A stretch of DNA of 64,000 nucleotides. It comes from Lacinutrix sp. Bg11-31 (GTDB taxonomy: Bacteria > Bacteroidota > Bacteroidia > Flavobacteriales > Flavobacteriaceae). The notes beneath the pieces are model-generated. The model was given only the letters and a program-made list of their open reading frames with translations. It did not search any database and had not been told where the DNA came from. A program made the translations under genes and the position numbers. The stretch covers positions 2,356,001-2,420,000 of the forward strand of contig NZ_CP025118.1 of NCBI RefSeq assembly GCF_002831665.1, in the 5' to 3' direction. Positions 3,955-23,557 of this stretch are shown here, piece by piece. How positions within the stretch are numbered: the first letter of the stretch is position 1; every line of letters starts with the position of its first letter.

Positions 3955-4037
3955 CAAATTTGCGTTATAAAAGCCAGTAAAATAGGCGACTTTAGATAGG
4001 TTGCTTGTTGCTGTAGACGAATGGAAAGAAGGTGTAG
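3955..4037 (-). promoter_or_regulatory. Candidate LytTR-type box a and -7 element for the glycosyltransferase
   Basis: Three half-sites (CTTTAG 3990, CTGTAG 4011, GTGTAG 4032) lie exactly 21 bp apart. The middle one is part of the core CTGTAGACGAATGG (4011-4024). A weak -7-like element (CAAATTTG, 3955-3962, one mismatch to TAnnTTTG on the minus strand) lies 28 bp from the proximal half-site. The gene starts at 3905. Confidence 0.6.
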
Positions 4038-4078
4038 ATTTACCATTCATCGATAGATGATTTATGGATATAAAACAG

Positions 4079-4113
4079 AAAAAGCCGTAGTTTAAAACCA
4101 CAGCCTTTTCTTC
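4079..4113 (-). terminator. Intrinsic terminator after the flippase gene
   Basis: On the minus strand GCTGTGG and CTACGGC arms (with G-U pairs) form a hairpin followed by TTTTT. It lies 36 bp past the flippase stop and insulates it from the glycosyltransferase promoter. Confidence 0.6.
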
Positions 4114-4148
4114 TGTTTTAGACTAATAAAATATATTTATTTAAACTT

Positions 4149-5393
4149 TTATTTCTTCAATTTAGAATCAAACATGAAGAAGATTACTTGGATAACTAAC
4201 AATGAAACCATTGCTATAATTTGCATGTGTACTACCTGTTCTAAACTCTCATGAAAAAAGACAACTAATACCATTTGTAACATTCCAAAGATTCCAGAAA
4301 TAACCACAGGCACATACCTATCTAAAGACAAATAGTAGTAAGCAAATATGTTTGATATGGCAAACAAACCAGTTGCTAAAGCGTACTTCCACAACAAAGG
4401 AGCGATTGCTAAATAACTTTCTCCAAATAACATTGTAATTGCTGTTTCTGGGAATAAAGCACAACCAATAACTATTGCTGTTGCAATTGCTGCGATATAA
4501 CCAACATATTTAAATAATATTGGAGCTGTTGCTTTCCCTTCTTTTTTAAGCTGAACTACTGTTGGCAATAACAACATAACAAACATCCAAGCAACGAAGT
4601 ATACTATACGACCAATTAAAGCTAATGAAGCATATAAACCTGCATCGTGCGCCTCGAAGTAATGTTTTACTAATAAAATATCACTATTGTTAATAATAAT
4701 TTGTGTAAACTCGTAAAACGCAGTAATGATAAAAAAGTTTTTAACCTGTTTCGCTTTGGTTGCTTCAATAGCAATTATCTTTTTAAAGTTTAAATTTTTA
4801 AATTTAAATGGCACTAAACCAAATCCGAAAGAGACTAAAATTCCAATGGCAATAACAACCGAAGATTGAATATTAAACAAGAATATTAAACCTAAAGTGA
4901 TAATTAATCGACTTAACATTTCAGCTTGATACGTAATCGATAACGACTTGAATTCTTTTTTACCTTGAAACACACCTCTATTTACACTCATTAAAAAGTA
5001 TAAAGGCACTCCAATTCCAAAAATGGTAAACATAGTAGAAGACGAAGTATTAAAAACTGCTTGCAGTTGCTTTGCAAACACAATTATTAAAGCGCCTAAA
5101 CCAAGACCTACAATAGTTGCATTCTTATAAATTTTTGAAACAAAATTTGTAAAGGTTTCGTTTTCAAAAATGACCGAAAATTTTGCAGTTACTAATTGAA
5201 ACGTCATCGCTACAAAAGACAACACTAATAAAAAGGTAATTAACACAGCTGCATCTGCAAATTGTGCTGGACCTAATACACGACCCAAAATAAGATTGTA
5301 AAAATAATTCCCTCCATTTACTGCTAATACACTTAGCATAAACAATTGTTCTGGAGTTATTTTTTTCGTTTTTAAAAGAGTTAAAGCTTGCAT
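4149..5393 (-). CDS. Polysaccharide flippase, Wzx/MATE-like
   Basis: The 414 residues form about 12 hydrophobic helices throughout, starting after a short cytoplasmic N-terminus (LLKTKKITPEQLFMLSVLAV). The pattern NYFYNLILGRVLGPAQFADA at residues ~30-48 is typical of the oligosaccharide flippase (PST) family, which moves lipid-linked glycans across the inner membrane. It is the last gene of a transcript beginning with two STAS genes (27 bp downstream of the second) and ends at a terminator. The neighbouring glycosyltransferase and glycoside hydrolase fit a role in exopolysaccharide export. The substrate is unknown. Confidence 0.85.
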   Translation of the reverse strand: MQALTLLKTKKITPEQLFMLSVLAVNGGNYFYNLILGRVLGPAQFADAAVLITFLLVLSFVAMTFQLVTAKFSVIFENETFTNFVSKIYKNATIVGLGLGALIIVFAKQLQAVFNTSSSTMFTIFGIGVPLYFLMSVNRGVFQGKKEFKSLSITYQAEMLSRLIITLGLIFLFNIQSSVVIAIGILVSFGFGLVPFKFKNLNFKKIIAIEATKAKQVKNFFIITAFYEFTQIIINNSDILLVKHYFEAHDAGLYASLALIGRIVYFVAWMFVMLLLPTVVQLKKEGKATAPILFKYVGYIAAIATAIVIGCALFPETAITMLFGESYLAIAPLLWKYALATGLFAISNIFAYYYLSLDRYVPVVISGIFGMLQMVLVVFFHESLEQVVHMQIIAMVSLLVIQVIFFMFDSKLKK

Positions 5394-5420
5394 CTTATTT
5401 GGTGTGTTTGGTATTATTAA

Positions 5421-5699
5421 TTAGGCTATGTTCGAAAATTGATAATCTTCGTAGATCTCTTCGCTTCTATAACCAGCAACAAAAAATGGATTGCTTTTTA
5501 ATGCTTCATTTCTATACATTTCTTTTAATGTAAATAGTGCAGAAGCATCCATCTCGGTAACCTTATCAAAATCTACAGTTAAGCTTCTAAAAGGATTTTG
5601 AATATATCCAAAATGCATTTTAAAATTTTTTACTGTTGCTGCATTTAATATGCCTTCTAAAGTAATTGTGTTGTCTTGTTGTGTAATTGTAAGTGCCAT
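5421..5699 (-). CDS. STAS-domain protein (anti-sigma antagonist-like), with DASA phosphosite motif
   Basis: The 92 residues match a single STAS domain: N-terminal strands (ALTITQQDNTITLEG), then VTVDFDKV-like strand and the loop EMDASAL. The Ser in that loop sits where SpoIIAA-type proteins are phosphorylated. No anti-sigma kinase is encoded nearby. It follows a paralogous STAS gene (40 bp gap) and precedes the flippase gene. A role as a switchable regulator of polysaccharide export is inferred from context only. STAS domains also occur in lipid transport proteins, but here the domain stands alone. Confidence 0.75.
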   Translation of the reverse strand: MALTITQQDNTITLEGILNAATVKNFKMHFGYIQNPFRSLTVDFDKVTEMDASALFTLKEMYRNEALKSNPFFVAGYRSEEIYEDYQFSNIA

Positions 5700-5739
5700 A
5701 GTTTTGGGTTTTATATGTTATTGTTTAAGCTGTGTTTGT

Positions 5740-6003
5740 TTAATTAAAATCTTTATAAATATCTTCACAACCATTTCCTGTGATAGAAAATAATTTATTA
5801 TTTCTTAAGGCGTTTGCTAGTAATATTTTAAAAGCTGCTACACCATTTCTATCGATTTCTTTTACTTTTTCGATATTTACTGTTACTTTTTTAAGTCTAC
5901 TAATAATGTGTTCAAAATGAATAATAAATGATCTTGAAGTTGTAGCGTTAAGGTTTCCTTCTAAATGAAATGTTCCGTTGTTTTCTAAAATTTGTAAAGC
6001 CAT
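5740..6003 (-). CDS. STAS-domain protein lacking the phosphorylatable serine
   Basis: The 87-residue protein is a paralog of the next gene downstream, with the same start MAL-I and the same strand order. At the position of DASA it has EIDRNGVAAF, so the usual phospho-acceptor Ser is replaced by Asn. It may therefore be locked in one state or act as a partner for the other STAS protein. It is the first gene of the STAS-STAS-flippase transcript and starts about 80 bp downstream of regulatory box b. Confidence 0.72.
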   Translation of the reverse strand: MALQILENNGTFHLEGNLNATTSRSFIIHFEHIISRLKKVTVNIEKVKEIDRNGVAAFKILLANALRNNKLFSITGNGCEDIYKDFN

Positions 6004-6045
6004 AATTATTGTGTTTTAAATTAGTATTGTGCTTGATTTCTGATA

Positions 6046-6115
6046 CAAAGATGCATTAGACACCTCTCAAAGTCTTTTGAATTTCGACGAGTCGACCATT
6101 GGTGTAGACGAATGA
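6046..6115 (-). promoter_or_regulatory. Candidate LytTR-type box b and -7 element for the STAS-flippase operon
   Basis: Half-sites ATTTCG (6081) and GTGTAG (6102) are 21 bp apart, and the core GTGTAGACGAATGA spans 6102-6115. A -7-like element CATCTTTG (minus strand, 6046-6053, one mismatch to TAnnTTTG) is 28 bp from the box. The box lies between divergent genes, so it could also affect the plus-strand TPR/barrel gene at 6159. Its orientation matches the minus-strand operon. Confidence 0.58.
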
Positions 6116-6158
6116 TTGAAATTGAATGCTTAACTTGCAAATGATTTAAAACAAGCAC

Positions 6159-8204
6159 ATGACATTCAAATCTATTATCCTACTATTACTATTGTTTACT
6201 GGCTTCTTTAGCTTTTCTCAAGACATGCAAGAAGGTTTTACTTATTTAGAAACTGGTAAATACACTGAAGCAGAAACGTTTTTTAATACCATTTTAAAAG
6301 ATTATCCAGATAATAAAACTGCACGATTGTGTTATGGGCGTGCAATTGGGCTAAACGGAAAACCAGAACAAGCCAACACGCTTTTTACAAATTTACTAGC
6401 AGATTTCCCAAACGACTTTGAGGTAAAACTAAACTATGGTGAATCTTTATTATGGAATAAAAATTTCCCAAAAGCTAAAACTTATTTTAAAGGTTTAATA
6501 AATGAAGATGCAAAAAGCTTTCCTGCATTATTAAGTTATGCAAATACATTATCTAACTTAAAAGAATACGAAGACGCTTTAGTTTATGTCAATAAAGCGT
6601 TAGATGTTTTACCAGGAAATCCAAATGCATTAACCTCTAAAAAGTATATGTATTTAGGTTATGCATACCAAAAGCAACAAGCACAAGATTATACTGGAGC
6701 AGAAGTTCTTTTAAAAGAAAACTTAACCCTTTTTAATAACGATAAAGACACGTTGTTAAATCTTGCTAATTTGTATTTAATTTCTAATCAGTTTGAGAAA
6801 GCTAAAGACACCTATAATGTATTATCAGAAAATCCAGAAAACAAATTAACCGCTTTAAATGGTTTAGCATTAGTTTCACATTTAAACGGAAAAGAAAAAG
6901 ATGCACTAAAAACCAGTAAACAAGCTTTTGATGGATTAACGAATACAAACAAGCTACTAACACAGCAAACAACAGAACGCTACATACAAGCCTTAATTTG
7001 GAATAAAAAATACAAAGCTGCCGAAACATTAATTACAGGTTTAGCTGCCACAAACCCAAACGAAAATTGGGTTTTAGCTTTACGTGCTACTTTAAACACA
7101 TACAAAGGTGACTTTAAAAAGAGTCTTAAAGATTACAACAGTATTTTAGTAAACGATAGCATTTCTTTTGATGGGAATTTAGGTAAAGCAAATGCACAAA
7201 AAGCATCTGGCTTATATAATGATGCTTACGATGCAGCAAATAAAACCTTATCCATTTTTAAGAATCAAAAAGATGCGATAAATTTTATAAACATACTAGA
7301 CAAACAGTTTACACCCTTTGTTGAAACCAAAACAGCTTATAGTTTCGATAATGGAGATAATGAAGCTATTACATCTACAACAAACGTAACCGTACCATTA
7401 TCTACAAAATTACAGGTTAATGGTGTGTATAGTTATAGAGATTCTAAAAACACCGTAACCAAAAATGAAGCTAAAGCAAATAATATGCTACTTGGTGTCT
7501 CTTATTTACTACACCCTAAAGTTGGTGTAAGAGCACATGTTGGTATTACAGATATCAATGCAAAAACAACAGCCTACACTCAGTTTTTAACTGATATTGT
7601 TTTTAATTTAAAACCAATAAAATTACAAACTCTAGATCTTGGTTTTAAAAGCCAATGGCAAGATTTTAATGCCGATTTAGTAAGTCGAGAAATTGTACAA
7701 AACACATTATATGCTAACTATAATGTAAACACAAATTTTAAATTGGGTTGGTTTACACAATACAATTACACATGGCAAAATGACAACAACCAAAGCCATT
7801 TATTATTTACCTCTTTATATTATAACCTGTTAAGCAAACCTGTACTTAAAGCAGGTTTAAATTACCAATACATAACTTTTAAAGACCAAGTACCAACAAT
7901 ATATTTTAGTCCAGAAAAATTTAATGTGTACGAAGTGTTTGTTGAACTTGTAAAAAACCAAAAAGGAAAATGGTTTTATAACCTAAATGTTGCAACAGGC
8001 TTACAGTTTATAGAAGACCAACCACAACAAAGCACTTACCGTTTTCAAGGTAAATTAGGCTACAATGTTTCGAATAGGTTTACAGCAAATATTTATGGTT
8101 TACATAGTAATATTGCCTCTGCAACAGCAGCAGGTTTTACGTTTACAGAAGTAGGTTTGAGGTTGAAATGGGATTTATTTAAGAAGACTATTTTTAGAGA
8201 GTAA
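6159..8204 (+). CDS. TPR protein with C-terminal outer-membrane beta-barrel (YaiO-like)
   Basis: The 681-residue protein has a signal peptide (MTFKSIILLLLLFTGFFSFS), then TPR-like helical repeats over about residues 20-380 (YLETGKYTEAETFF, KNFPKAKTYFKGL and others). The C-terminal ~290 residues alternate aromatic and polar residues, as in an outer-membrane barrel, and end with WDLFKKTIFRE. TPR-plus-barrel proteins serve as export pores in polysaccharide systems (PgaA/PelB-type logic). Placed beside a glycosyltransferase, flippase and glycoside hydrolase, it is a good candidate for the outer-membrane exit. It is divergent from the STAS operon. Confidence 0.78.
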   Translation: MTFKSIILLLLLFTGFFSFSQDMQEGFTYLETGKYTEAETFFNTILKDYPDNKTARLCYGRAIGLNGKPEQANTLFTNLLADFPNDFEVKLNYGESLLWNKNFPKAKTYFKGLINEDAKSFPALLSYANTLSNLKEYEDALVYVNKALDVLPGNPNALTSKKYMYLGYAYQKQQAQDYTGAEVLLKENLTLFNNDKDTLLNLANLYLISNQFEKAKDTYNVLSENPENKLTALNGLALVSHLNGKEKDALKTSKQAFDGLTNTNKLLTQQTTERYIQALIWNKKYKAAETLITGLAATNPNENWVLALRATLNTYKGDFKKSLKDYNSILVNDSISFDGNLGKANAQKASGLYNDAYDAANKTLSIFKNQKDAINFINILDKQFTPFVETKTAYSFDNGDNEAITSTTNVTVPLSTKLQVNGVYSYRDSKNTVTKNEAKANNMLLGVSYLLHPKVGVRAHVGITDINAKTTAYTQFLTDIVFNLKPIKLQTLDLGFKSQWQDFNADLVSREIVQNTLYANYNVNTNFKLGWFTQYNYTWQNDNNQSHLLFTSLYYNLLSKPVLKAGLNYQYITFKDQVPTIYFSPEKFNVYEVFVELVKNQKGKWFYNLNVATGLQFIEDQPQQSTYRFQGKLGYNVSNRFTANIYGLHSNIASATAAGFTFTEVGLRLKWDLFKKTIFRE

Positions 8205-8253
8205 ATGTTTTAAGTATCAAAAAAAACATAAAAAAAACATAATTTGCTATTAA

Positions 8254-9048
8254 TTATCCTCTGCTTGCTTTTACTGGACATCCAATGGCTTTTGTTAAGT
8301 TTGGACTTGGTTTCTTGCCAGCTTGTAATGCTTTAATCGCTTCTTCAACGTACTTCACTTTTACATCTTCTGGAGATTTAGAATTATCATCAATAGCTCC
8401 AATGTATTGTACTTTAAGCTCTTTGTCTAATAGAAATACTTGTGGAGTTCTAACAGCTCCATATTGCGGATATATTTTTTGTCCTTCGTCTACTAAATAC
8501 GCAAACGGAAACGCTTTGTCTTTAGCACGAGTTTGCATTGCTGCATAACCTTCTTTTTCATTTTCCGGACTATTTGGGTTTATTGCAATTACAGAATATC
8601 CTTGTGGAGCATATGTGTTATGCAACGCGATTAAACGGTCTTCGTATAATTTTGAAAAAGGACACTCATTACAAGTAAAAGTTACAATATAGCCTTTAGC
8701 ATTCTCAACACCTGCAAGAGACACCATAGAACCATCTATATTTTTAAGATTAAAATCGGTTGCTACATCTCCAATATTATAACCTCCAATTTCCTCTATT
8801 GTTTTTGTTTGCTCTGGACTTCCTCCTTTTGGTGGTCCTTTTCTATCTCCTCCATGTGGTGGACCTTTTCGGTCTCCATCATGATGTTTTCCTTTTCCAT
8901 CTTTTGGATGGTGTTCACTATCTGGACCATGTTCATGTTCCTTATGCTCTAAAGCTGTATCATGTTTATGGTTTTCTTTATTTTTACATGATACCAGTAC
9001 AATTGCTAACATGGCAACCATAGTAAATACTACACTTATTCTTTTCAT
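8254..9048 (-). CDS. Thioredoxin-fold (AhpC/TSA-like redoxin) lipoprotein with His-rich linker
   Basis: The 264-residue protein has a lipobox ending at Cys21 (AIVLVSC). Residues about 27-66 are extremely rich in His, Lys, Asp and Gly and include a near-perfect repeat GDRKGPPHGG/GDRKGPPKGG, suggesting metal binding. From residue ~88 a redoxin domain follows, with the redox pair in FTCNECP (Cys126, Cys129) and the IAINPN strand. It should act in the periplasm, tethered to a membrane, as a thiol oxidoreductase or peroxide-related enzyme. It lies 6 bp after a TlpA-like gene and is probably co-transcribed. The natural substrate is unknown. Confidence 0.82.
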   Translation of the reverse strand: MKRISVVFTMVAMLAIVLVSCKNKENHKHDTALEHKEHEHGPDSEHHPKDGKGKHHDGDRKGPPHGGDRKGPPKGGSPEQTKTIEEIGGYNIGDVATDFNLKNIDGSMVSLAGVENAKGYIVTFTCNECPFSKLYEDRLIALHNTYAPQGYSVIAINPNSPENEKEGYAAMQTRAKDKAFPFAYLVDEGQKIYPQYGAVRTPQVFLLDKELKVQYIGAIDDNSKSPEDVKVKYVEEAIKALQAGKKPSPNLTKAIGCPVKASRG

Positions 9049-9054
9049 CTTAAA

Positions 9055-9612
9055 TTATTTATGTATTGTTTTATTTATTTCGTTTTCTAAGTCTTCTACA
9101 TTTTCAAACGACCGCTCGTAAAAAGCTCGTTTTTTATTATTAAAAATAACTGTAAACGGTATTGCTCCAGACCAATTTGGATCTATTTTATCTATCCAAA
9201 TGTTAGATGCAGGGTCGTCTAACAACACAACTTTAGAAGTAATGTTTTTTTCTTTTAAAAATGGTTTCAGCTTAGTTTCTATATCTTTTGTAAAGTCTAG
9301 ACTCACTAATATTACTTCTGTATCGGGATGCTTTTTTTGATATTCTTGTATATACGGTAACTCTTTAACACAAGGAGCACACCACATTGCCCAAAAATTA
9401 ACAATATATGTTTTGTTACTATCTGTATATAATAGAGGTTCTAGTTGATCAAAATTGTAAACAGGAATACTGTCGTTAATAGTTGTGCTATTACTTGCTG
9501 TTGTAGCAACAATATCTGTTTTAGTCTTGTTGCAGCTTACACAAAAACAGAATACTACTATTACAAATAATAGTAGTTGTGGCTTTTGTTTTAAAAAGAA
9601 TGTCTTCACCAA
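9055..9612 (-). CDS. TlpA/ResA-family thiol-disulfide oxidoreductase lipoprotein
   Basis: The 185 residues begin with a hydrophobic leader and lipobox Cys27 (FCVSC). A thioredoxin fold follows with the active site NFWAMWCAPC (Cys78, Cys81) and a cis-Pro region at GAIPFTV. It should reduce or isomerise disulfides in the periplasm, as TlpA/ResA proteins do in cytochrome maturation or envelope repair. It is the first gene of a two-gene transcript with the His-rich redoxin downstream (6 bp gap). Confidence 0.88.
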   Translation of the reverse strand: MVKTFFLKQKPQLLLFVIVVFCFCVSCNKTKTDIVATTASNSTTINDSIPVYNFDQLEPLLYTDSNKTYIVNFWAMWCAPCVKELPYIQEYQKKHPDTEVILVSLDFTKDIETKLKPFLKEKNITSKVVLLDDPASNIWIDKIDPNWSGAIPFTVIFNNKKRAFYERSFENVEDLENEINKTIHK

Positions 9613-9680
9613 GATAAGAAGGGTTTAAAAACATTAGACTTTTTAAATTACAAAAGGTTTAATTTGGGTTTGTTTTTTTT

Positions 9681-9709
9681 GATTGGGTTTTGATTGGGTT
9701 TTGATTGGT
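9681..9709. repeat. 11-bp tandem repeat GATTGGGTTTT, about 2.6 copies
   Basis: The unit GATTGGGTTTT is repeated head to tail upstream of the TlpA-like gene. No gene is seen in the surrounding 9613-9795 stretch, which otherwise holds only a terminator. Confidence 0.75.
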
Positions 9710-9740
9710 TGTTATTTTAGAATTTTGTTTTTAGGGTATA

Positions 9741-9778
9741 AAAAAACGATTTAAACTTTAGTTCAAATCGTTTTTTTA
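9741..9778. terminator. Bidirectional intrinsic terminator
   Basis: AAAAAACGATTT and AAATCGTTTTTTT arms around a short loop give a hairpin with A- and T-runs on both sides. It lies 18 bp past the stop of the XRE-ImmA/IrrE gene. Confidence 0.8.
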
Positions 9779-9795
9779 TTTTAATTCTATATTTA

Positions 9796-10857: not shown

Positions 10858-10888
10858 TTTTTTATTTAGTTTATTTAGTTAATAAAAA

Positions 10889-10901
10889 GTTGCATCCAAT
10901 T
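10889..10901. promoter_or_regulatory. Candidate operator half-site between the two pair genes
   Basis: GTTGCATCCAATT matches 12 of 13 bases of the reverse complement of AATCGGATGCAAC at 11560-11572, the left arm and spacer of the palindrome upstream of the pair. A common binding protein, probably the XRE regulator, is inferred. Confidence 0.4.
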
Positions 10902-10905
10902 CTAA

Positions 10906-11529: not shown

Positions 11530-11557
11530 AAAATTATTTATATTTAAATATTATACA

Positions 11558-11579
11558 ATAATCGGATGCAACCGATTAT
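11558..11579. promoter_or_regulatory. Perfect palindrome, candidate operator of the pair
   Basis: ATAATCGG and CCGATTAT are separated by ATGCAA. The palindrome lies 29 bp upstream of the 207-residue protein gene, where an autoregulating XRE protein would bind. Confidence 0.55.
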
Positions 11580-11580
11580 A

Positions 11581-11611
11581 AATATCTCTGCTGTAACAGA
11601 GATATTTTTTT
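11581..11611. terminator. Hairpin with T-run (plus strand)
   Basis: AATATCTCTG and CAGAGATATT pair around CTGTAA, followed by TTTTTT on the plus strand. No plus-strand gene ends here, so it may instead be a leader hairpin or block spurious transcription near the pair's promoter. Confidence 0.45.
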
Positions 11612-11697
11612 GAATTACAAATATATAATAATCATTTTAAATTGTATGTTTGATTATATAATTTTTATATTAAATTGTAAAAAGTTATAAACAATTT

Positions 11698-11907: not shown

Positions 11908-12108
11908 TTTCTATATTTTAATATGTTTACTACAAAAATAGAGGCACAAACCTCAGTTATAGAACAAGGCTTATAGCTAAAAAGATTCAGTAATTAATAT
12001 ATTAAAAAAGAAGAAATTCTTCAGTCATTAGCTACGTTATAAACTATCAATTAAAACCATATTCTAGTTTCCTTAGCCTTCTAAATAACAACTCAAGTTA
12101 CAAAAACT

Positions 12109-13086: not shown

Positions 13087-13283
13087 GTATTGTTGATTTT
13101 CAGGGATTACTTTTAATAGTATAAATATACTACTTAAAGAAGGATTATAAAATGGAAGTGTTATTTGGTGTTTTTTTTACTTAGCGTTTTTGGATTATAA
13201 TTAGAGTCGAAGAATCTCGATAAATAAGAGAGAATTCTTAGTCGTTTGCTGCACTAAACATCTTAAATTATTAGAAACTATTG

Positions 13284-15959: not shown

Positions 15960-15985
15960 GGTTTGTTTATTTCTTAATTGCAAGT

Positions 15986-16067
15986 CAAATTTACTTTAGA
16001 AACTCGTTTTAAATCATGTTTTTCGTTTAGTGTAATTTTAGTGTAGACGAATGGTTATTATCTGTAG
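15986..16067 (-). promoter_or_regulatory. Candidate LytTR-type box c and -7 element for the T9SS protein
   Basis: Three half-sites (TTTTCG 16020, GTGTAG 16041, CTGTAG 16062) are exactly 21 bp apart, with core GTGTAGACGAATGG at 16041-16054. A perfect -7 element TAAATTTG (minus strand, 15986-15993) lies 27 bp from the box. Confidence 0.68.
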
Positions 16068-16082
16068 ATAAGCGATTTCACT

Positions 16083-16574
16083 TTACAGTTTTACAAAGAT
16101 GTTGGTGAAATAATTTTTACCTTGTTCGTCTTGTTGAGTTGAAATCCCAAAATCTGTAAAGTCTGGATTTTCTATATTCTGTCTATGCCCTTCGCTATTT
16201 ATCCAAGCATCAACTAAAGATTGTGCATTACTAAAACCAAAACCAACATTTTCTGAAACATTTTTAGCATTAACAGACTCTTTTAGGTTTTGCGATCTTA
16301 AATAAAAAAAATCATGGCTTGGCACTCCTTTATTAACCATGTATTGGTTGTGCTTAGTAGCTTCTTTAGATGCTGCATTTAATATATTTAAAGTATTAAG
16401 GCCTTGAGATATTCTGTAGGCATTAATGAGCTCAGCAATTTCATAATCTAATTGTGTATATTCTACACTTATGTTTTCTAATTTGTATTCTTCTGGAGTA
16501 GTATTCTCTTCTTCTACAGAACAAGACATAAAAAAGGCGCTAAATAAAACGGCTACTAAAACTAATTTTTTCAT
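16083..16574 (-). CDS. CAP/SCP-domain lipoprotein
   Basis: The start at 16574 (MKKLVLVAVLF) gives a lipobox Cys18 (FFMSC). The ~140-residue CAP domain carries the usual His and Glu positions: EATKHNQYM, SHDFFYLR, SENVGFGF, then WINSEGHRQNI and GISTQQDEQGKNYFTNIFVKL at the end. CAP proteins are secreted or surface proteins of varied roles, including lipid or peptidoglycan binding and adhesion. It is a single gene, and regulatory box d lies 56 bp upstream. Confidence 0.88.
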   Translation of the reverse strand: MKKLVLVAVLFSAFFMSCSVEEENTTPEEYKLENISVEYTQLDYEIAELINAYRISQGLNTLNILNAASKEATKHNQYMVNKGVPSHDFFYLRSQNLKESVNAKNVSENVGFGFSNAQSLVDAWINSEGHRQNIENPDFTDFGISTQQDEQGKNYFTNIFVKL

Positions 16575-16888
16575 CACGATTGGTTTATTTGATGACAAAA
16601 TTAATTTAAAAGGCAGTTGAATTTTATGTTTTTCGATTAGGTGACTTTTATGTGTAGACGAATGGTTTAAACATTAAGATAAACGCTGGCAATTTTAATT
16701 AGCAGTGTTATGGAATCTTTTTAAAGACAAAAAGACCATTTAAAGTATATACAATCTATCCTTTTTGAAGACAGTTGTAAATGTAAATGTATTTTAAATG
16801 ATTGTGTTGAGATTGTTTTTTTGGTTAACGCACTATTACCAAAACTGAAGTTAAACTAAACGATTTAAATAATAGCTTAAATACTTAA
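16575..16888. other. Intergenic region with regulatory box d
   Basis: No gene is seen in these 314 bp. They hold the promoter and box d of the CAP lipoprotein and, nearer 16889, the AT-rich 3' flank of the LytTR operon. A stem TTTTGG(T)/(A)CCAAAA occurs near 16815-16850 but has no T-run in the operon's direction, so no clear operon terminator is visible. Confidence 0.6.
16596..16665 (-). promoter_or_regulatory. Candidate LytTR-type box d and -7 element for the CAP lipoprotein
   Basis: The core GTGTAGACGAATGG is at 16652-16665 and the second half-site TTTTCG at 16630, spaced 22 bp, one more than the other boxes. A perfect -7 element TAATTTTG (minus strand, 16596-16603) lies 27 bp from the box. 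Confidence 0.6.
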
Positions 16889-17602
16889 TTACAGCAAATT
16901 TAGACGTTTCATTAGTTCTGGCCTGTTAGATCTGCTTACAGGAATAACATCTTTTTTAATTAACACACTGTTATCCTCGATATCAATTATTTTTTTAATA
17001 TTTATAATATAAGAACGATGCACTTTTAAAAATAAACTATCTGGAAGCTTGTCTTCAATTTTCTTTAATGTAGAGTGTACTGTGTAGTTTTTATCTTCAG
17101 TTTTAACTTGAATATAGTCCCCTTTTGCTTCCACTAAATAAATACTTGGGATATCTATTTTAATTAAACGTCTATCTATATTTACATACAAATCGTTACC
17201 AGAAGTGGCTTCTACCTTTTCTCCTTTTGATACGGTTTGACTTGGTTTAATCTGTTTAGATTCTGCTTTTTGTATGGCTTTATCAAAACGCTCTTGCGTA
17301 ATTGGCTTAACTAAATAATCTACAATACAATCGTACTCAAACGCTTGAATAGCAAAATTAGGATCTGATGTTGTTAAGATTATTTTTGGTGGATTTTTAA
17401 GTGTCTCTATAAAATCGAAACCTGTAAAATCTGGCATATGTATATCCAAGAAAATTAAATCAACTTCGTTTTGATTTAAATATTTTATGGCTTGCATTGC
17501 GTTAGGAAATTCTTCTAAAACGTTAAGACTTGGTAGCTTTGAGCATAATTGTGTAATAATCATTCTTGCTGTAGCTTCGTCGTCAATGATAATGCAATTC
17601 AT
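16889..17602 (-). CDS. LytTR-family response regulator
   Basis: The 237 residues have an N-terminal receiver domain with phospho-acceptor Asp53 in FLDIHMP. A C-terminal LytTR DNA-binding domain (about residues 135-235) contains YLVEAKGDYIQVKTEDKNY and FLKVHRSYIIN. It binds direct repeats in promoters in other bacteria (AlgR, AgrA, VirR). It is the last gene of a seven-gene signalling operon, 9 bp after the Hpt gene. The six AlgR-like boxes described in the window are candidate targets. No other LytTR protein is in the window, though one elsewhere in the genome could equally be the binder. Confidence 0.92.
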   Translation of the reverse strand: MNCIIIDDEATARMIITQLCSKLPSLNVLEEFPNAMQAIKYLNQNEVDLIFLDIHMPDFTGFDFIETLKNPPKIILTTSDPNFAIQAFEYDCIVDYLVKPITQERFDKAIQKAESKQIKPSQTVSKGEKVEATSGNDLYVNIDRRLIKIDIPSIYLVEAKGDYIQVKTEDKNYTVHSTLKKIEDKLPDSLFLKVHRSYIINIKKIIDIEDNSVLIKKDVIPVSRSNRPELMKRLNLL

Positions 17603-17611
17603 AGGTTGTAT

Positions 17612-17929
17612 TTAAAGAGTCTCTAGATATTTTGTTATGCTGTTAAGTATCGCTTCAAATTGGTCTTTCCCTTCGGTTTTTCCTTCTTCTAAATTATTCT
17701 CGTACGTTATAGCGCTTTCATATCCTTTTTCGAGGCCTAAAATACTAATTTTATGTTTAAGTTTATGCACATTATCTGCTGCTAACTTATAATTTTTAGC
17801 ATTGTAATTATCAAAATAGATTTGTTTCTCTTCTGGAAACTCTTTTTTAATAACTTCAATTAGTTTTTGTTTAAAGGCTTCATCACCTCCAGACAAGTTG
17901 TTAATATAAGATTGATTAGGTTTTTCCAT
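17612..17929 (-). CDS. Hpt-domain phosphotransfer protein
   Basis: The 105-residue all-helical protein has the Hpt signature NVHKLKHKISILGLEKG, where His55 is the likely phosphorylated histidine. It would relay phosphate from a kinase or hybrid receiver to a response regulator. It lies between a histidine kinase gene (14 bp overlap) and the LytTR regulator gene (9 bp gap), which suggests the relay kinase, Hpt, LytTR. Confidence 0.88.
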   Translation of the reverse strand: MEKPNQSYINNLSGGDEAFKQKLIEVIKKEFPEEKQIYFDNYNAKNYKLAADNVHKLKHKISILGLEKGYESAITYENNLEEGKTEGKDQFEAILNSITKYLETL

Positions 17930-18980
17930 TTGGAGATTTTTTTAAAGTGAAATAAAAAGTGGTTCCAATAGAGACTTGAGATTCAATCCATATTTTTCCA
18001 CCATATAAATCTATAATTTTCTTTACAATAGACAAACCAATACCAGAAGATTCTGGGTTGTTTTCTAATTTCTCAAAGGTTTTAAAAATTTTATCAAAGT
18101 AAATTTCTTCAATACCTTTTCCGTTATCTTTTATATAAAATTGCCAATAATTATCTTTGTCTTCTACACCAATATCAATAGTTCCCTTATCCTTACCGTT
18201 ATACTTTATAGCATTAGCAATTAGGTTTTGAAACAGTTGTTGCAATCTATACTTATCTCCTTGTATAATAGGCATATTGGATTTTGTAATACTAATATGT
18301 TCTGGAACTTGTATACTATTTAATATATCTTCAATTAGATTTTTTATATCTACATCGTAAACCTCTAATTGGTTTTTACCAATAGTCGAATATTCTAAAA
18401 TACCATTGATTAAGGTATCCATTTTCTCTACATTATCCCTAATAAGGTCTAATGTTTTTTTACCATTATCATCAAACACATCTTTATAATCTTCGGTTAA
18501 CCAAGATGTTAATGCATCTATACTACGTAATGGTGATTTTAAATCGTGAGATACCATATGTGCATAATCACTTAGTTCTTGATTTTGATGTGCTAATTCT
18601 GAAAGTAAAGTTTCTCTTTGTTTGTTTATTTGAACAATTTCTTTGGTTTGATTACCAATAAATTCAATCATTTTTAAACCATCTAACTCTAGATTATCCG
18701 CAGATAGATTCTCTGGTAGATTATAAAAATTTAAGGTATCTAAGACATGTTTTAATTTATCTATAACTTCTTGCTGCCCTTTTGCTTCTTGTTGTAATTG
18801 CTGATTAGCTTCAAATAGCTCGTCGGAACTAATTGTCATAGCACGTTGCTGCATTGCAAACTGATCGTCGAACGTTTTATAAGAGCTATTAACAGCAAAT
18901 AAAAACTTTTTTAAATTTTCATTTGTTGCTAAATCTTCAGATAAATATTTACGTATTTGACGTTTTAATAGTGAATTCAT
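17916..18980 (-). CDS. Cytoplasmic histidine kinase (HisKA-HATPase)
   Basis: The 354 residues have no signal peptide or transmembrane segment. An N-terminal coiled-coil-like region (to about 130) is followed by HisKA with the motif HMVSHDLKSPLRS (His145) and an HATPase domain with N, G1 and G2 boxes (NLIANAIKYNG, DNGKGI, GIGLSIVKKI). The kinase sits directly next to a FIST-domain gene (adjacent, no gap), and kinases beside FIST/NosP proteins often receive the FIST signal. It is probably soluble and controlled by the FIST or H-NOX partner. Confidence 0.9.
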   Translation of the reverse strand: MNSLLKRQIRKYLSEDLATNENLKKFLFAVNSSYKTFDDQFAMQQRAMTISSDELFEANQQLQQEAKGQQEVIDKLKHVLDTLNFYNLPENLSADNLELDGLKMIEFIGNQTKEIVQINKQRETLLSELAHQNQELSDYAHMVSHDLKSPLRSIDALTSWLTEDYKDVFDDNGKKTLDLIRDNVEKMDTLINGILEYSTIGKNQLEVYDVDIKNLIEDILNSIQVPEHISITKSNMPIIQGDKYRLQQLFQNLIANAIKYNGKDKGTIDIGVEDKDNYWQFYIKDNGKGIEEIYFDKIFKTFEKLENNPESSGIGLSIVKKIIDLYGGKIWIESQVSIGTTFYFTLKKSPNGKT

Positions 18981-20114
18981 TTATTCGCTTATAAGCGTTA
19001 TAGTCATGGTTTGATTGTGTAATTGGCAATTTGTTTCGCCATGAAAAGGCGCAATTTCTCCATAAGAATAAAACCCACAAATTGTAGTATCCTTTCCAAC
19101 CACGTTTACTACTTCTTCAATCTCTTCTTCTACACGTTGATCTAGCACTAGCTTTCTACCAATACAACTTACAAGCAATGCTAGTTGCGGTTTTGTTTCT
19201 CTTAACTCCAATGCTTGTCTTGCAGCACGTTCTGATGCATTTGCAATATTATCCACATTAGTCATCATGAGTTGTACTTTAGAATTCTCTGGAATATCTC
19301 CAGCCAAAATCATGGTGTTATTATCTTCGTTTATGTTTAAGATAGTACGTACAAACGATTGTTTTTCGCCTTCAGACTTTACGTTTAATGGATATAATAA
19401 TGCTGCTCCAGGCAATTCTTTAGATTTGTCTCCTAAATACTTTTTATACAAATCTAAAGCTGGCTTTCCGTCTAGTTCAAACAACACATTAGATTCCGAT
19501 TTTGTTACAATACGTTCTGGTCCAAAAGGTGTCCATCCACCATGAATAGAAAAAGTAGATTCAAACGTATCTCCATAAAAACCAATGGCAACAATTTCGC
19601 CTGGTTTTGGGTTTTCGTTATATGCTGCTACTGTTTTTTCAAAACGTGCTGCATCACCACAAAGTCCTCCTGTAATTAAAGTATTATTTTGTGTTGCTGC
19701 ATTCATTCCTTTTGTAAGCTGGCTTCCATTAATAAAACTACCTTCTGAAATTACAAAAATATGTTTTAAATTATCTGTTGGAAACTCGCTTACTAAATAT
19801 TTACCTGTTTTAAAACTGTCTAAATCTGCATTTAAAACGTTACTTGTTTTTATTTGAAAGGTGCTTTTTTCAAACTCTATTGCTGTAATAGTTATACTTT
19901 CATCATCTACCACATCTGCAGTAATATCTCCACTTGTAGATCCAAATACTAAATGACCATCTGGAAACAAATCTCTAACTTGTTTATATATAGTAGTATC
20001 TTCAAGCATATATCTATTTCCTAGAATTAAAACTAGTGGCTTTTTTAATTCTAGTTTAGGAGATAAATAATCCCAATCTTGATCTTTCTTCTTTTTTATC
20101 TGGAGCGTTTTCAT
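18981..20114 (-). CDS. FIST-domain sensor protein (NosP-like)
   Basis: The 377-residue protein has FIST_N and FIST_C regions, the latter with the hallmark GFYSYGEIAPF near the C-terminus and LLVSCIGRKL before it. FIST proteins include NosP, a haem-binding nitric oxide sensor that controls neighbouring kinases in other bacteria, although some FIST proteins may bind small molecules or act without haem. I cannot identify a haem ligand with certainty here. It lies between two histidine kinase genes with gaps of 0 and 2 bp, a typical NosP-like setting. Confidence 0.85.
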   Translation of the reverse strand: MKTLQIKKKKDQDWDYLSPKLELKKPLVLILGNRYMLEDTTIYKQVRDLFPDGHLVFGSTSGDITADVVDDESITITAIEFEKSTFQIKTSNVLNADLDSFKTGKYLVSEFPTDNLKHIFVISEGSFINGSQLTKGMNAATQNNTLITGGLCGDAARFEKTVAAYNENPKPGEIVAIGFYGDTFESTFSIHGGWTPFGPERIVTKSESNVLFELDGKPALDLYKKYLGDKSKELPGAALLYPLNVKSEGEKQSFVRTILNINEDNNTMILAGDIPENSKVQLMMTNVDNIANASERAARQALELRETKPQLALLVSCIGRKLVLDQRVEEEIEEVVNVVGKDTTICGFYSYGEIAPFHGETNCQLHNQTMTITLISE

Positions 20115-20116
20115 TT

Positions 20117-22075
20117 TTATTTTTTTAAAGTGAAATAAAATGTAGTTCCTACATTTGGCTCACTATCTAACCATATTTCTCCTTCATGTAAATTGACAAT
20201 TTTTTTAACGATAGATAAGCCTATTCCTGAAGAGTTTTTACTTTTCTTTAATGAATGGAATATCTTAAATATTTTATCGTGATATTTTTTATCAATACCT
20301 ATACCATTATCTTGTATTGAAAATTTATAGTGACTTTTAAAATCCTCTACATTAATAATAATACTACCTACTTCTTTATCTATAAACTTAACCGAGTTGC
20401 TAATTAGGTTTTGAAACACTTGTTGCAACCTCGTTCTATCTCCTTTTATTGTAGGTAAAACATTAAGGCTTTTAATTGTAATATGCTCTGGTATATATAA
20501 AATAGTAACCAACTCACTTACTAAACTGTTTAAATCGACATCAGTTTTTTCTGAAATATCCGATCCAACACTAGAGTAGTTTAAAACATCTGTAATAAGT
20601 TGTTCCATTTTCTCTAAAGTGGTTTCTATAAGATCAAAATTTTGAAGACTCACCTCATCTAATTTGCCTTGATTATCTTCTTTTATCCAACTCACCAAGG
20701 CATCTATACTGCGTAATGGCGATTTTAAATCGTGAGAAACTATATGCGCATACTCTTGTAACTCGTCGTTACTTTTTCCTAATTCCTCAAGTAGTTTTTC
20801 TTTTTGAAGCTCTAAATTTTTAGTTTCAGTAATATCTAAATGAATTCCAATAGATCCAATTACGTCTCCATCAATATTATAATTTGGCGCACCACTTACT
20901 AACCAACATCTAGTCTTACCAGTTTTACAAATGGCTTTAAACTCATAAGAGTTTGATTCCCCTTTTTTACGTTTGTTCCTTTCCTCTTTTAATAAGTCTG
21001 CTTCTTCTTTAGACGAAAAAAGTTCTATTGCATTCTTCCCTATAACTTCTGCTTCAGTATAGCCAGACATTTCCTCAAAACTCTGGTTTACCATTAGGAT
21101 TTCGTCGTTATTATTTAACTCAACCATTCCTAAATTCATATTCGCAATAATATTATAATATTTTTGCTTCTGCGCTTCAAGACTTTTACTATAAGTACGT
21201 TTTAAAGTAACATCTGTAAAGGTCCATAAAAACCCTTTAGACTCCTCTCCTATTGTTATTGGCATGTAATTGCGTTCTAGAATTTTACCATCTAACATTT
21301 CTAATTCATCACTAATTACTGCTTTTTCATCTACATCAATAGCTCGCATTCTTTGTATAAATCCTTCAGGATCTTTAAACAATACTTTATTTTGTTCTGA
21401 TGCCGCAACGCAATCCATACCTATTAAATCTTTAGGATTTGCATCTATACCAAAAAGTTCACAAAACTTATTATTTGTGAGTACTATATTTCTATTTTCG
21501 TCTTCTAAAACAATACCGCTATCAAGGTTTACAACAAGAGAGGCTAATCTATTTTCTGATTCTATTAATTTGTCTTCAGAAGCTTTTTGGTCTGTAACAT
21601 CTCTAACAATACCTTGTGCTGCAACTGGTTTTTTATCTTTATCAAAAATAAGACTAGCATTAATGTGTACCCATTTTACTTCTTTATATTTGGTATACAC
21701 TCTGGCTTCGTAATTTTTAAAAAGGCCTTTAGTTTGTAAATCTATAAAAGACGACATCGCGTATTTATAATCTTCTTTATAAATAAGATTAACAACATTT
21801 ACGTTGTCTACTGCTATATCGTACCCAAATAATTTGGTAGCAGCTTCATTAAATTTTATAAAATTACCTTCTAGATCCATAACAACGTATGCATCTACAA
21901 TGTTTTCAAAAACACCTTGAAGTTGAGATGATTTCTCGTCTAGTAATGATTCTAGTTTTTGGGAAGTAAAGTATAGGTCTCTTGATTTTTCTTCAAGAAT
22001 TTTTTCAGCTGCTTTTCTAGCAGCCTTTTCTCTTTTTAAAGCACGTTGTAATATTTCTACTTTATCCTGACTCAT
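20117..22075 (-). CDS. Multi-PAS cytoplasmic histidine kinase
   Basis: The 652 residues have no membrane segment. An N-terminal coiled coil is followed by three PAS domains (about 50-165, 175-290 and 305-420), the third with an ITETKN-type PAC end. Then comes HisKA with YAHIVSHDLKSPLRS and an HATPase domain with NLISNSVKF and GIGLSIVKKI. PAS domains often hold redox or haem/flavin signals. The stop codon's last base overlaps the H-NOX start side, so the gene is tightly coupled to the H-NOX gene upstream, whose product is a likely regulator of this kinase. Confidence 0.9.
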   Translation of the reverse strand: MSQDKVEILQRALKREKAARKAAEKILEEKSRDLYFTSQKLESLLDEKSSQLQGVFENIVDAYVVMDLEGNFIKFNEAATKLFGYDIAVDNVNVVNLIYKEDYKYAMSSFIDLQTKGLFKNYEARVYTKYKEVKWVHINASLIFDKDKKPVAAQGIVRDVTDQKASEDKLIESENRLASLVVNLDSGIVLEDENRNIVLTNNKFCELFGIDANPKDLIGMDCVAASEQNKVLFKDPEGFIQRMRAIDVDEKAVISDELEMLDGKILERNYMPITIGEESKGFLWTFTDVTLKRTYSKSLEAQKQKYYNIIANMNLGMVELNNNDEILMVNQSFEEMSGYTEAEVIGKNAIELFSSKEEADLLKEERNKRKKGESNSYEFKAICKTGKTRCWLVSGAPNYNIDGDVIGSIGIHLDITETKNLELQKEKLLEELGKSNDELQEYAHIVSHDLKSPLRSIDALVSWIKEDNQGKLDEVSLQNFDLIETTLEKMEQLITDVLNYSSVGSDISEKTDVDLNSLVSELVTILYIPEHITIKSLNVLPTIKGDRTRLQQVFQNLISNSVKFIDKEVGSIIINVEDFKSHYKFSIQDNGIGIDKKYHDKIFKIFHSLKKSKNSSGIGLSIVKKIVNLHEGEIWLDSEPNVGTTFYFTLKK

Positions 22076-22614
22076 TAATTTTTATGAATAATAAACCTTA
22101 CTTCAGTTCCGTCTTCTTTTATTTTTTCTAATGCGATTGTAGCTGATGAATTAAAGTGCTCAAATGTTTTATTCATTAAACCTAAGCCAAAGTGATGCAT
22201 TGCTCTACTTGATGTATAAATCATTACTAAAGAGTTTTTAGTTTTCTCTACAACCTCAAAAGTTGGTAACTCTGCATCTGGATAAATTTTTCTAACCTCT
22301 ACATGGATATGATTTTCTATTGAAGAAATCATTTCTATAGGATCTTTATAAGTTGCTAAAAGCCCTGGATAACTTTTCTCTATAACACTAAAAAAGTGTT
22401 CTGCATAAACCAATAATAAATTATCAATTGAGATACCTGTATTTTCGCTTAAATGTTCTAATAATTGTAACATTTCTGAAAAACTATAAGTTCCTACTGC
22501 TGTATAAACACCTTCAGACTCTAGCTTAGAACTAGTTATAATATTATCAACCATTTCTAGGCCAAATTTTCTCTCTACTAACTCTAAAAATTCTGTAAAA
22601 ACTATACCTTTCAT
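22075..22614 (-). CDS. H-NOX haem nitric oxide/oxygen-binding domain protein
   Basis: The 179 residues match the H-NOX family start to end: MKGIVFTEFLELVERKFG, then SIENHIHVEVRKIYPDAELP. The proximal haem ligand is probably His104, which has the spacing to the IYP motif seen in guanylate cyclase; His102 is an alternative. The propionate-binding YxSxR motif is intact (YTSSR, Tyr133, Ser135, Arg137). Bacterial H-NOX proteins sense NO and inhibit or activate partner kinases. It is second in the operon, 3 bp after the receiver gene, and directly before the PAS kinase. Confidence 0.94.
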   Translation of the reverse strand: MKGIVFTEFLELVERKFGLEMVDNIITSSKLESEGVYTAVGTYSFSEMLQLLEHLSENTGISIDNLLLVYAEHFFSVIEKSYPGLLATYKDPIEMISSIENHIHVEVRKIYPDAELPTFEVVEKTKNSLVMIYTSSRAMHHFGLGLMNKTFEHFNSSATIALEKIKEDGTEVRFIIHKN

Positions 22615-22617
22615 TTT

Positions 22618-23031
22618 TTAAACTACTATTAATTCATTGATACTCCAATATGCTAATAATTTTTCAATTTTACTAACATAATCCTCATATTTTAATGGTT
22701 TAATAACATAACCTGCAACTCCTGTTTTATAACACTCTAATAAATCTTTTTGGTTATTAGAAGTTGACAAAATTATTGTAGGTATGTACTTTAATACATC
22801 ATCCTTTTTTAAAATATTTAAAAACTCAATACCATTAATTTTCGGCATATTTAAATCTAACAAAATAATATCTGGTAGATTATCTTTTTTTTCTAAAATT
22901 TCTAGAGCTTCTTCGCCATTATTGGCTTCAATAATTTTATGATCTAATTTTAAAGTAGAAATTGTTCTGTTCAATTTCATAATTTCGATCATGTCATCTT
23001 CTATTAGAAGAATTTTAAGTTTTTTTACCAT
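22618..23031 (-). CDS. Single-domain response regulator (receiver only)
   Basis: The 137 residues form one receiver domain: acidic pair EDD at 11-13, phospho-acceptor Asp59 in LLDLNMP, Thr/Ser and Lys in STSNNQ and YVIKPLKY. There is no output domain, so it probably works as a phosphorelay intermediate or phosphate sink for the kinases of the operon. It is the first gene of the seven-gene operon and its promoter carries box e. Confidence 0.9.
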   Translation of the reverse strand: MVKKLKILLIEDDMIEIMKLNRTISTLKLDHKIIEANNGEEALEILEKKDNLPDIILLDLNMPKINGIEFLNILKKDDVLKYIPTIILSTSNNQKDLLECYKTGVAGYVIKPLKYEDYVSKIEKLLAYWSINELIVV

Positions 23032-23057
23032 TAAGAGGGCTTTAATTTGAATAACTG

Positions 23058-23148
23058 TAAAGTTAACGTAATTAAAAAATCTTTAATTTTAAAACTCGTT
23101 TAGAGTTATTTAAGTATCGCCGAATAACGCTTAAGTGTCGACGAGTGG
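23058..23148 (-). promoter_or_regulatory. Candidate LytTR-type box e and -7-like element before the H-NOX operon
   Basis: Half-sites GTATCG (23114) and GTGTCG (23135) are 21 bp apart, with core GTGTCGACGAGTGG at 23135-23148. A further TCG lies in phase at 23096-23098. The nearest -7-like element is TAACTTTA (23058-23065), 49 bp from the box, so the spacing differs from boxes a-d by one 21-bp step. Confidence 0.5.
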
Positions 23149-23162
23149 TAATGTTTTTGTTT

Positions 23163-23438
23163 TTAACCTTTACAGTATTCTATAGATTTTAAAGTATTTA
23201 CCTCTGCGTAATATCTAATATTTTCAAGTTCTTGAATAAAGCTTAAAGAGTAACTATCCTCATTTTTCTTATCTAAATACATTTCAAAGAAAGAAATAAA
23301 CTCTAATTGCTTTAAACTATCGTGTAAGTTTTTACAATTTTTTGTATTTAGTTTTTTTTTTATGTTGCTCTTTTTTACCGAGGAAATTTTATTAATTGTA
23401 AATACTTTTGAGAGAATGTTATTACTAAAAAAAATCAT
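23163..23438 (-). CDS. Hypothetical protein, 91 residues, putative regulon member
   Basis: I do not recognise this protein. It has a basic N-terminal half (SSVKKSNIKKKLNTKN) and an acidic, helical C-terminal half (SFIQELENIRYYAEVNTLKS), with no clear signal peptide. It lies alone, about 130 bp before the H-NOX operon and on the same strand, and has its own promoter with box f. The shared box suggests it belongs to the same regulatory circuit, perhaps as an adaptor. Short length leaves some doubt that it is coding. Confidence 0.55.
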   Translation of the reverse strand: MIFFSNNILSKVFTINKISSVKKSNIKKKLNTKNCKNLHDSLKQLEFISFFEMYLDKKNEDSYSLSFIQELENIRYYAEVNTLKSIEYCKG

Positions 23439-23467
23439 ATTATGGAGGCCCTTAATTAATTATAGTT

Positions 23468-23557
23468 CAAAATTAAGATGATATACTCTCTAATTTTTTA
23501 TTATTCTTTCTACGTAGATTTTGTGTCGTTAAATAGCAATAAAGTGTCGATGAGTTA
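23468..23557 (-). promoter_or_regulatory. Candidate LytTR-type box f and -7 element for the 91-residue gene
   Basis: GTGTCG occurs at 23523 and 23544, exactly 21 bp apart, with core GTGTCGATGAGTTA from 23544. A perfect -7 element TAATTTTG (minus strand, 23468-23475) is 48 bp from the box, one 21-bp step more than in boxes a-d. Confidence 0.52.

Follow-up and report, generated by a model that had tools for sequence, protein, structure and literature searches.

Direct-repeat boxes in 21-bp steps at an H-NOX/FIST-LytTR operon of Lacinutrix sp. Bg11-31 and their putative exopolysaccharide regulon

Which genes does an H-NOX gas sensor control in a flavobacterium, and through which DNA sites? The question is raised by a stretch of 64,000 nucleotides of Lacinutrix sp. 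Bg11-31 (Flavobacteriaceae; contig NZ_CP025118.1, positions 2,356,001 to 2,420,000), hereafter the window. It carries an operon coding for an H-NOX protein, a FIST-domain protein, two histidine kinases and a response regulator with a LytTR domain, surrounded by copies of a direct-repeat box. No described output of H-NOX in Bacteroidota was found in the literature searched. A first-pass annotation of the window had proposed that the LytTR regulator binds the boxes and links signalling to exopolysaccharide and surface proteins, an interpretation that the present sequence comparison supports. The sites, their geometry, their recurrence and their co-occurrence across genomes were established. The relay formed by the H-NOX and FIST proteins, the kinases and a histidine phosphotransfer (Hpt) protein probably drives the receiver (REC)-LytTR regulator, which would activate its own operon together with an exopolysaccharide and surface regulon.

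Boxes and promoter geometry

All six box cores reported by the first-pass annotation were located (Table 1), the one at 23544 by direct reading. They share one orientation, and the start codons that they precede, all on the minus strand, are 78-106 bp away. The reported spacing was confirmed, the direct repeats being 21 bp apart, or 22 bp in the box at 16652. A second half-site is likewise present, in a weak form in the box at 4011 (CTATCTAAA), but the boxes at 23135 and 23544 hold three half-sites, which had been missed. In a box, two or three half-sites phased at 21 bp, or in some cases 22 bp, follow one another as direct repeats, CCATTCGTC[GT]ACAC ... TAAnCGAA. The 14-mer GTGTAGACGAATGG, searched with up to 3 mismatches, gave 9 matches in the window against a mean of 2.39 and a maximum of 8 in shuffled sequence. 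Five are boxes (4011 and 6102 with 1 mismatch, 16041 and 16652 with none, 23135 with 2), the core at 23544 having 5 mismatches; the other matches are at 6096, 12881, 19122 and 45340.

The search was extended to the whole genome, a single contig of 3.665 Mb in which the window is G000:C1:2356001-2420000. With at most one mismatch, the 13-mer CAYTCGTCNACAC was found at 12 sites, compared with 6 for the reversed control. The 5 exact sites all fall within 2352739-2379147 (26.4 kb), four in the window and one 3.2 kb before it, whereas the chance of five random sites falling within 26.4 kb of the genome is about 1e-8. The 7 one-mismatch sites comprise the box at 4011 and six sites elsewhere in the genome, none of which has a promoter element (at most one mismatch) in register. 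Copies unrelated to promoters are therefore not numerous, and the exact ones are confined to the cluster, all in promoter register. A seventh box, missed earlier, lies in promoter register on the minus strand at G000:C1:2352752, 3.2 kb to the left of the window. A two-half pattern combined with the promoter element retrieved three sites, all known boxes (control, 2). A pattern of three half-sites plus a relaxed promoter element was rejected as too loose (10 matches against 11 in the control, two known boxes among them). No credible further box was found outside the cluster by these patterns, which could miss weaker copies fitting none of them.

The promoter element is TAnnTTTG, which we take to be the -7 element of Bacteroidota. 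It is separated from the start of the box by 61-62 bp when there are two half-sites and by 82-83 bp when there are three, and all seven boxes of the genome conform. The annotation had given direct repeats spaced by about 21 bp as typical of LytTR proteins, and such an architecture was indeed found beside the promoters. The geometry was then examined with a matrix trained on the H-NOX-operon promoters of 57 of the 80 named loci, whose consensus is CCATTCGTC[GT]ACACTTAA, followed at +21 bp by TTC[AG]TC[GT]ACACTTAA and after another 21 bp by TTAAnCGAAT. At 17 bits or more, 57 sites were found in 41 sequences (the window and relatives, 792,839 bases), against none after reversal; over 121 sequences (2,335,625 bases) the matrix found 209 distinct sites, against 2 in reversed sequence. 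Chance and low complexity can be rejected because these controls are nearly empty. Among the 209 sites, exact TAnnTTTG occurs at 61 (33 sites), 62 (30), 82 (34) and 83 bp (4); no other position has it more than once. At threshold 15, in 141 sequences from this and related genomes, a -7 element with at most one mismatch stands in register at 201 of 247 sites, compared with 3-8 of 247 at seven shifted registers; loci overlap between these collections, relatives are not independent and sites were de-duplicated by 80-bp sequence only.

The half-site core C[GT]A is repeated at +21 in 72%, at +22 in 12% and at +42 in 35% of 229 sites. An extra half-site shifts the first half-site outward by 21 bp, while the last half-site (TAAnCGAA), weak in most cases, keeps the start of its core 32 bp from the -7 element. 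Promoters of the CAP lipoprotein gene have a 22-bp spacer and the -7 element at 62 (17/17), and those of the type IX secretion system (T9SS) protein mostly have a 21-bp spacer with the -7 element at 61 (29/43). Promoters of the GT4 glycosyltransferase gene mostly combine 21 bp with a -7 element at 62, so the link between spacer and register is not strict. In most relatives the promoter of the operon itself carries a three-half-site array, and in G205 and G024 the operon is preceded by two perfect copies of the 13-mer at a distance of exactly 21 bp.

The operon and the regulator of the boxes

The REC-LytTR protein is clearly recognized by Pfam (LytTR, 76.7 bits for a cut-off of 22.6; Response_reg, 68.7 bits for a cut-off of 30.2), and LytTR is the sole DNA-binding domain that Pfam found in the operon. 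The H-NOX protein matches HNOB at 133.7 bits (cut-off 25.5) and contains a histidine at position 102 and the sequence YTSSR, presumably the proximal histidine and the YxSxR of the H-NOX motif. It is closest to proteins of Lacinutrix and its neighbours, and its nearest solved structure is PDB 6BDD, a Kordia algicida protein (322 bits). To judge from the protein families, the H-NOX and NosP-like FIST proteins would adjust the kinases HK1 and HK2, and phosphate would pass via the Hpt protein to the regulator at 16889-17602. Phosphorylated LytTR dimers or oligomers would then bind the half-sites, whose phasing of 21-22 bp would place the bound domains on one face of the DNA. LytTR bound in the observed geometry, with the last half-site core 32 bp upstream of TAnnTTTG, may activate transcription: activation is favoured by the place of the array, upstream of the -7 element, and by its outward growth in whole helical steps, and self-activation is expected from the three-half-site array at the operon promoter of most relatives. 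The targets would be the operon (positive feedback), the small protein gene, the CAP lipoprotein and the large T9SS surface protein and, for exopolysaccharide, GT4, the STAS/STAS/flippase genes and a response-regulator-GT2 fusion (RR-GT2) just outside the window. The net effect would be a switch of matrix or surface state responding to nitric oxide (NO) or a related diatomic gas.

Co-occurrence was assessed in 249 genomes of the family. A LytTR orthologue, defined by at least 55% identity (below this come a single tandem copy at 50% and paralogues that reach at most 44%), is present in 99 of them, and H-NOX in 94. The exact 13-mer was found in 47/99 genomes with the LytTR orthologue and 5/150 without, and the double motif (up to 2 mismatches) in 53/99 and 8/150; together the two patterns cover 63/99 and 11/150. 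The exact 13-mer has 85 sites, of which 40 are located upstream of H-NOX, on the strand of that gene and no more than 2 kb away, and another 28 share its strand at a distance of up to 60 kb; the reversed 13-mer has 11 matches in the 249 genomes. The two-half pattern with the promoter element was too noisy to be used alone (67 matches against 49 reversed, by our own count); it occurs in 43 genomes, 33 of them with LytTR. A site of at least 17 bits is found within 800 bp upstream of H-NOX at 68 of 79 eligible named loci, compared with 53 of 1321 random 800-bp stretches taken from these loci, an enrichment that is partly by construction because the matrix was trained on 57 of the 80 loci.

Since co-occurrence does not suffice, LytTR and H-NOX were separated by means of rearranged genomes. 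In five genomes that were examined the two genes lie apart: three have the box with LytTR, one has it with H-NOX, and in one it was found at neither. In G172, G227 and G011 it stands at the REC-LytTR pair, and the separate H-NOX-HK-FIST-HK-Hpt operon yielded none. Nine LytTR genomes devoid of H-NOX were also checked: G005, G115 and G147 have in-register boxes at the module or its targets, and in G238 a double motif bearing one mismatch is found next to REC.

Several observations weigh against the LytTR protein as binder or against the proposed relay. The exact 13-mer is associated with H-NOX (46/94 genomes with, 6/155 without) nearly as it is with LytTR, so that co-occurrence alone does not part the two. 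Neither pattern matches in 36 of the 99 LytTR genomes; the double motif has a background of its own (71 matches against 17 reversed, by our own count) and misses box e of this genome; and upstream of H-NOX the score stays under 15 at 11 of the 79 named loci, several of them keeping, by eye, a drifted CTACAC repeat. Among the rearranged genomes, the G011 box is a 2-mismatch match, G179 has its box at the H-NOX locus with none of at least 17 bits at the LytTR locus, and G197 has no such site at either. Among the genomes without H-NOX, no site was found in G062, G082 and G123, and the sites of G129 (out of register) and G047 (about 8 kb from LytTR) are doubtful. G049 has an H-NOX-operon box (locus L222), and no LytTR orthologue was found there; its H-NOX gene has an in-frame stop and the FIST match is partial, and it looks like a decaying module. 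As to the relay, the Hpt candidate, which lies between kinase and regulator and contains an HKLKHK stretch, reaches 15.6 bits with PF01627, below the cut-off of 24.6. The FIST protein reaches the FIST_N and FIST_C cut-offs but scores 62.3 bits with the NosP equivalog NF041558, whose cut-off is 450. Finally, H-NOX is absent from 10 of the 99 LytTR genomes, so that NO sensed by H-NOX is not the sole input.

Another regulator, either a LytTR paralogue or an unrelated factor, might bind the boxes, the LytTR of the operon being merely a neighbour or a target. The genome encodes further LytTR-REC proteins, one listed at 41% identity, and the G179 box lies away from the LytTR locus. Yet any LytTR-REC match is found in 172/249 genomes, far beyond the 99 with the orthologue, and it is without the orthologue that the exact motif falls near background. 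The box, moreover, accompanies the REC-LytTR pair away from H-NOX in G172, G227 and G011, and no other DNA-binding domain was found in the operon. A different binder thus appears quite unlikely. The recurrence of a sequence at a constant distance from the -7 element would also fit a repeated element or a sigma-factor promoter motif instead of an operator. But each of several different genes has one ordered operator that recurs before orthologues in other genera, array length varies by whole 21-bp steps while the -7 element stays TAnnTTTG, and the motif is near background without the LytTR orthologue, which makes this explanation extremely improbable.

Two further alternatives accept LytTR as the binder. 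LytTR might repress until phosphorylation or gas relieves the promoter, much as CO acts on CoxC; this LytTR protein, which responds to CO, binds three direct repeats 18-21 bp apart over the -35 and represses (PMC11347149). The present array lies upstream of the -7 element and extends outward in 21-bp steps, most LytTR regulators bind upstream of the -35 and activate (PMC11347149), and HdrR activates itself from upstream sites (PMC6193735); repression is accordingly judged unlikely. Slightly more credible, while still rather unlikely, is a real regulon whose main signal is not NO, H-NOX and FIST being optional inputs on a kinase-Hpt-LytTR core. The LytTR genomes without H-NOX, some of which have boxes, and the low NosP score of the FIST protein speak for it; H-NOX is nevertheless present in 89/99 LytTR genomes, and the nearest solved H-NOX, 6bdd of Kordia algicida, was modelled as a gas sensor (PMC7356049).

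Target genes and a candidate small RNA

The sites reappear before orthologues of the same genes in other genera. Downstream of the 247 sites were found the REC gene of the H-NOX operon (115), the T9SS protein (43), CAP (17), GT4 (13), RR-GT2 (12), the small protein (5), STAS1 (2) and the flippase (2), 38 being unassigned. These genes were called by tblastn with the proteins of this genome, and some REC sites are a second half-site rescored; the REC count is partly by construction because REC promoters trained the matrix, which the other targets did not. A full or GT2-only homologue of RR-GT2 (E at most 1e-60) is present in 68/249 genomes, 67 of which also have the LytTR orthologue; in the relatives G019, G076, G138 and G195 the GT2 part stands alone and has an upstream box. 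The set of GT4, flippase, STAS pair, GT2 and a tetratricopeptide-repeat (TPR)/beta-barrel protein looks like an exopolysaccharide system. The last of these, at window 6159-8204 and divergent from box b, is a TPR and probable beta-barrel protein with weak similarity to PgaA, and could be a polysaccharide export porin.

Other boxes were noticed in relatives. In L108, an in-register box at 18206 stands 147 bp before a 728-aa protein that resembles, by eye, a chain-length/Wzc-type polysaccharide protein. In L167 (G205:C1:2024001-2044000), about 2 Mb from the H-NOX operon, three similar boxes at 5396, 7142 and 13317 precede a receiver-domain protein and secreted-looking and phosphoribosyltransferase-like proteins (the last two by eye), possibly a relocated branch of the regulon.

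Nine units in eight loci (L087, L089, L091-L095 and L120), at about 15.7-16.3 kb and 100-310 bp downstream of LytTR, have a box with the -7 element in register (82-83) and no ATG frame above 31 aa. They are 65-77 nt long, with the start assumed, and end in an intrinsic terminator such as AAGGCAAAAGAGAAATCTTTTGCCTTTTTT. These units are a candidate LytTR-controlled small RNA of Winogradskyella and Psychroserpens. A weaker in-register box (3.5-12.6 bits) stands at the same place in L081, L090, L097, L100, L105, L116 and L125; the unit was not seen in the window. Units were kept only when an in-register box lay upstream, and the weaker matches of the RNA model R1 were mostly ordinary terminators because the model paired only the terminator stem. 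In L087, L093, L120, the window and L191, neither the boxes nor the small-RNA unit matched an Rfam family at gathering thresholds. At window 41863-41936 and 49590-49624 and at L191 11283-11362 were found, respectively, a tRNA, an S16-Flavobacteria leader and a Flavo-1 RNA. In a broader view, judged less likely than not, the H-NOX/FIST pathway of Flavobacteriaceae would end in a dedicated, genomically local LytTR regulon controlling exopolysaccharide by 21-bp-stepped operators, possibly also via the enzyme activity of the receiver-glycosyltransferase fusion among the targets, and the same operators would drive this terminator-ended small RNA of 65-77 nt in the two genera.

Table 1. Boxes, promoter elements, operon genes and putative targets (window positions unless indicated; mismatches are to TAnnTTTG)
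Feature	Position	Strand	Remarks
Box a	3991..4024	-	First half-site CCATTCGTCTACAG; second half, at +21, weak; precedes GT4 glycosyltransferase
-7 element of box a	3955..3962	-	CAAATTTG, 1 mismatch; 62 bp from box start
Box b	6082..6115	-	Upstream of STAS-STAS-flippase genes
-7 element of box b	6046..6053	-	CATCTTTG, 1 mismatch; 62 bp from box start
Box c	16021..16054	-	CCATTCGTCTACAC ... CTAAACGAA, 21 bp; upstream of T9SS protein
-7 element of box c	15986..15993	-	TAAATTTG, exact; 61 bp from box start
Box d	16631..16665	-	22-bp spacing; upstream of CAP lipoprotein
-7 element of box d	16596..16603	-	TAATTTTG, exact; 62 bp from box start
Box e	23094..23148	-	Three half-sites CACTCGTCGACAC / TTCGGCGATAC / TAAACGAG; upstream of H-NOX operon
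-7 element of box e	23058..23065	-	TAACTTTA, 1 mismatch; 83 bp from box start
Box f	23503..23557	-	Three half-sites CTCATCGACAC / TTAACGACAC / TACGTAGAA; upstream of small gene
-7 element of box f	23468..23475	-	TAATTTTG, exact; 82 bp from box start
Single-domain response regulator (REC)	22618..23031	-	First gene of the operon
H-NOX (HNOB) haem gas-sensor protein	22075..22614	-	
PAS-histidine kinase HK1	20117..22075	-	
FIST_N/FIST_C protein, NosP-like	18981..20114	-	Below NosP cut-off
Histidine kinase HK2	17916..18980	-	
Probable Hpt phosphotransfer protein	17612..17929	-	Weak Hpt match, E 0.019, below cut-off
REC-LytTR response regulator	16889..17602	-	Proposed box binder
GT4 glycosyltransferase, 407 aa	2682..3905	-	Target a; recurrent target, 13 collected sites
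STAS-domain protein 1	5740..6003	-	Target b; Pfam match just under cut-off
STAS-domain protein 2	5421..5699	-	
Polysaccharide flippase-like membrane protein	4149..5393	-	
Secreted protein, 866 aa	13359..15959	-	Target c; DUF6923 and T9SS sorting domain
CAP-domain lipoprotein	16083..16574	-	Target d
91-aa protein	23163..23438	-	No family above cut-off; relatives hold small proteins with same promoter
Receiver (3-113) and GT2 glycosyltransferase (140-306), 394 aa	L191:15468-16652 = G000:C1:2351468-2352652		Seventh box upstream

Comparison with known systems

Several components of this arrangement are already known: LytTR repeats spaced by about 12 bp with self-activation (PMC6193735, PMC11347149), repeat triplets with the CO-linked LytTR proteins RcoM and CoxC (PMC11347149) and H-NOX-linked transcriptional feedback by HnoC (PMC8738867). 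A prior description of the H-NOX/FIST-LytTR combination with this operator and regulon was not found in the literature searched, which mostly did not cover subscription papers. A defined operator, a target list and a promoter geometry make the question of the gas-sensor output testable, and the stepwise 21-bp geometry offers a natural test series for the contact of a LytTR array with the Bacteroidota polymerase. A single, precisely spaced and conserved switch would suggest a role for these sensors in flavobacteria.

LytTR sites are described as 9-bp direct repeats with 10-13 bp spacing (PMC11347149), mostly 12 bp, upstream of the promoter, and HdrR activates its own expression (PMC6193735). 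The response regulators AgrA, VirR and HdrR share with the present system the REC-LytTR protein and direct repeats upstream of a promoter. The qualifier AlgR-like given to the boxes by the annotation holds for the core, since CCATTCGTC differs from the AlgR core CCGTTCGTC (PMC4064291) by one base (8/9 identical), but not beyond it, the likeness being one of core sequence. What sets the window apart from AgrA, VirR, HdrR and AlgR is that half-sites, two or three to an array, follow each other in whole 21-bp steps ahead of a Bacteroidota TAnnTTTG promoter, and that the LytTR gene is part of an H-NOX/FIST operon.

A diatomic gas is likewise tied to LytTR in RcoM and CoxC, with a triplet of direct repeats at a spacing of about two turns (PMC11347149); there, sensor and LytTR domain are in a single protein, whereas the window codes for a multi-gene phosphorelay. 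The H-NOX/kinase-HnoC network of Shewanella oneidensis also joins H-NOX and a kinase to a transcription factor of the response-regulator type within a feedback loop (PMC8738867); HnoC, likened here by its description, represses and is relieved by phosphorylation. In contrast with that network, the window has a LytTR protein as regulator, FIST as a second sensor, an Hpt protein and exopolysaccharide targets. For the closest solved relative, the Kordia algicida H-NOX (PDB 6BDD), structure and dynamics were studied and the available part of that paper describes no regulon (PMC7356049); at the K. algicida locus L145 a half-site lies 558 bp upstream of H-NOX. In the Vibrio H-NOX/NosP-LuxU quorum relay, as in the relay proposed here, the sensor acts on a kinase feeding a phosphotransfer protein (PMC6769237, PMC8738867). 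The Vibrio relay ends in Qrr RNAs and that of the window would end in LytTR operators; the candidate small RNA of Winogradskyella and Psychroserpens would be a parallel to the Qrr RNAs.

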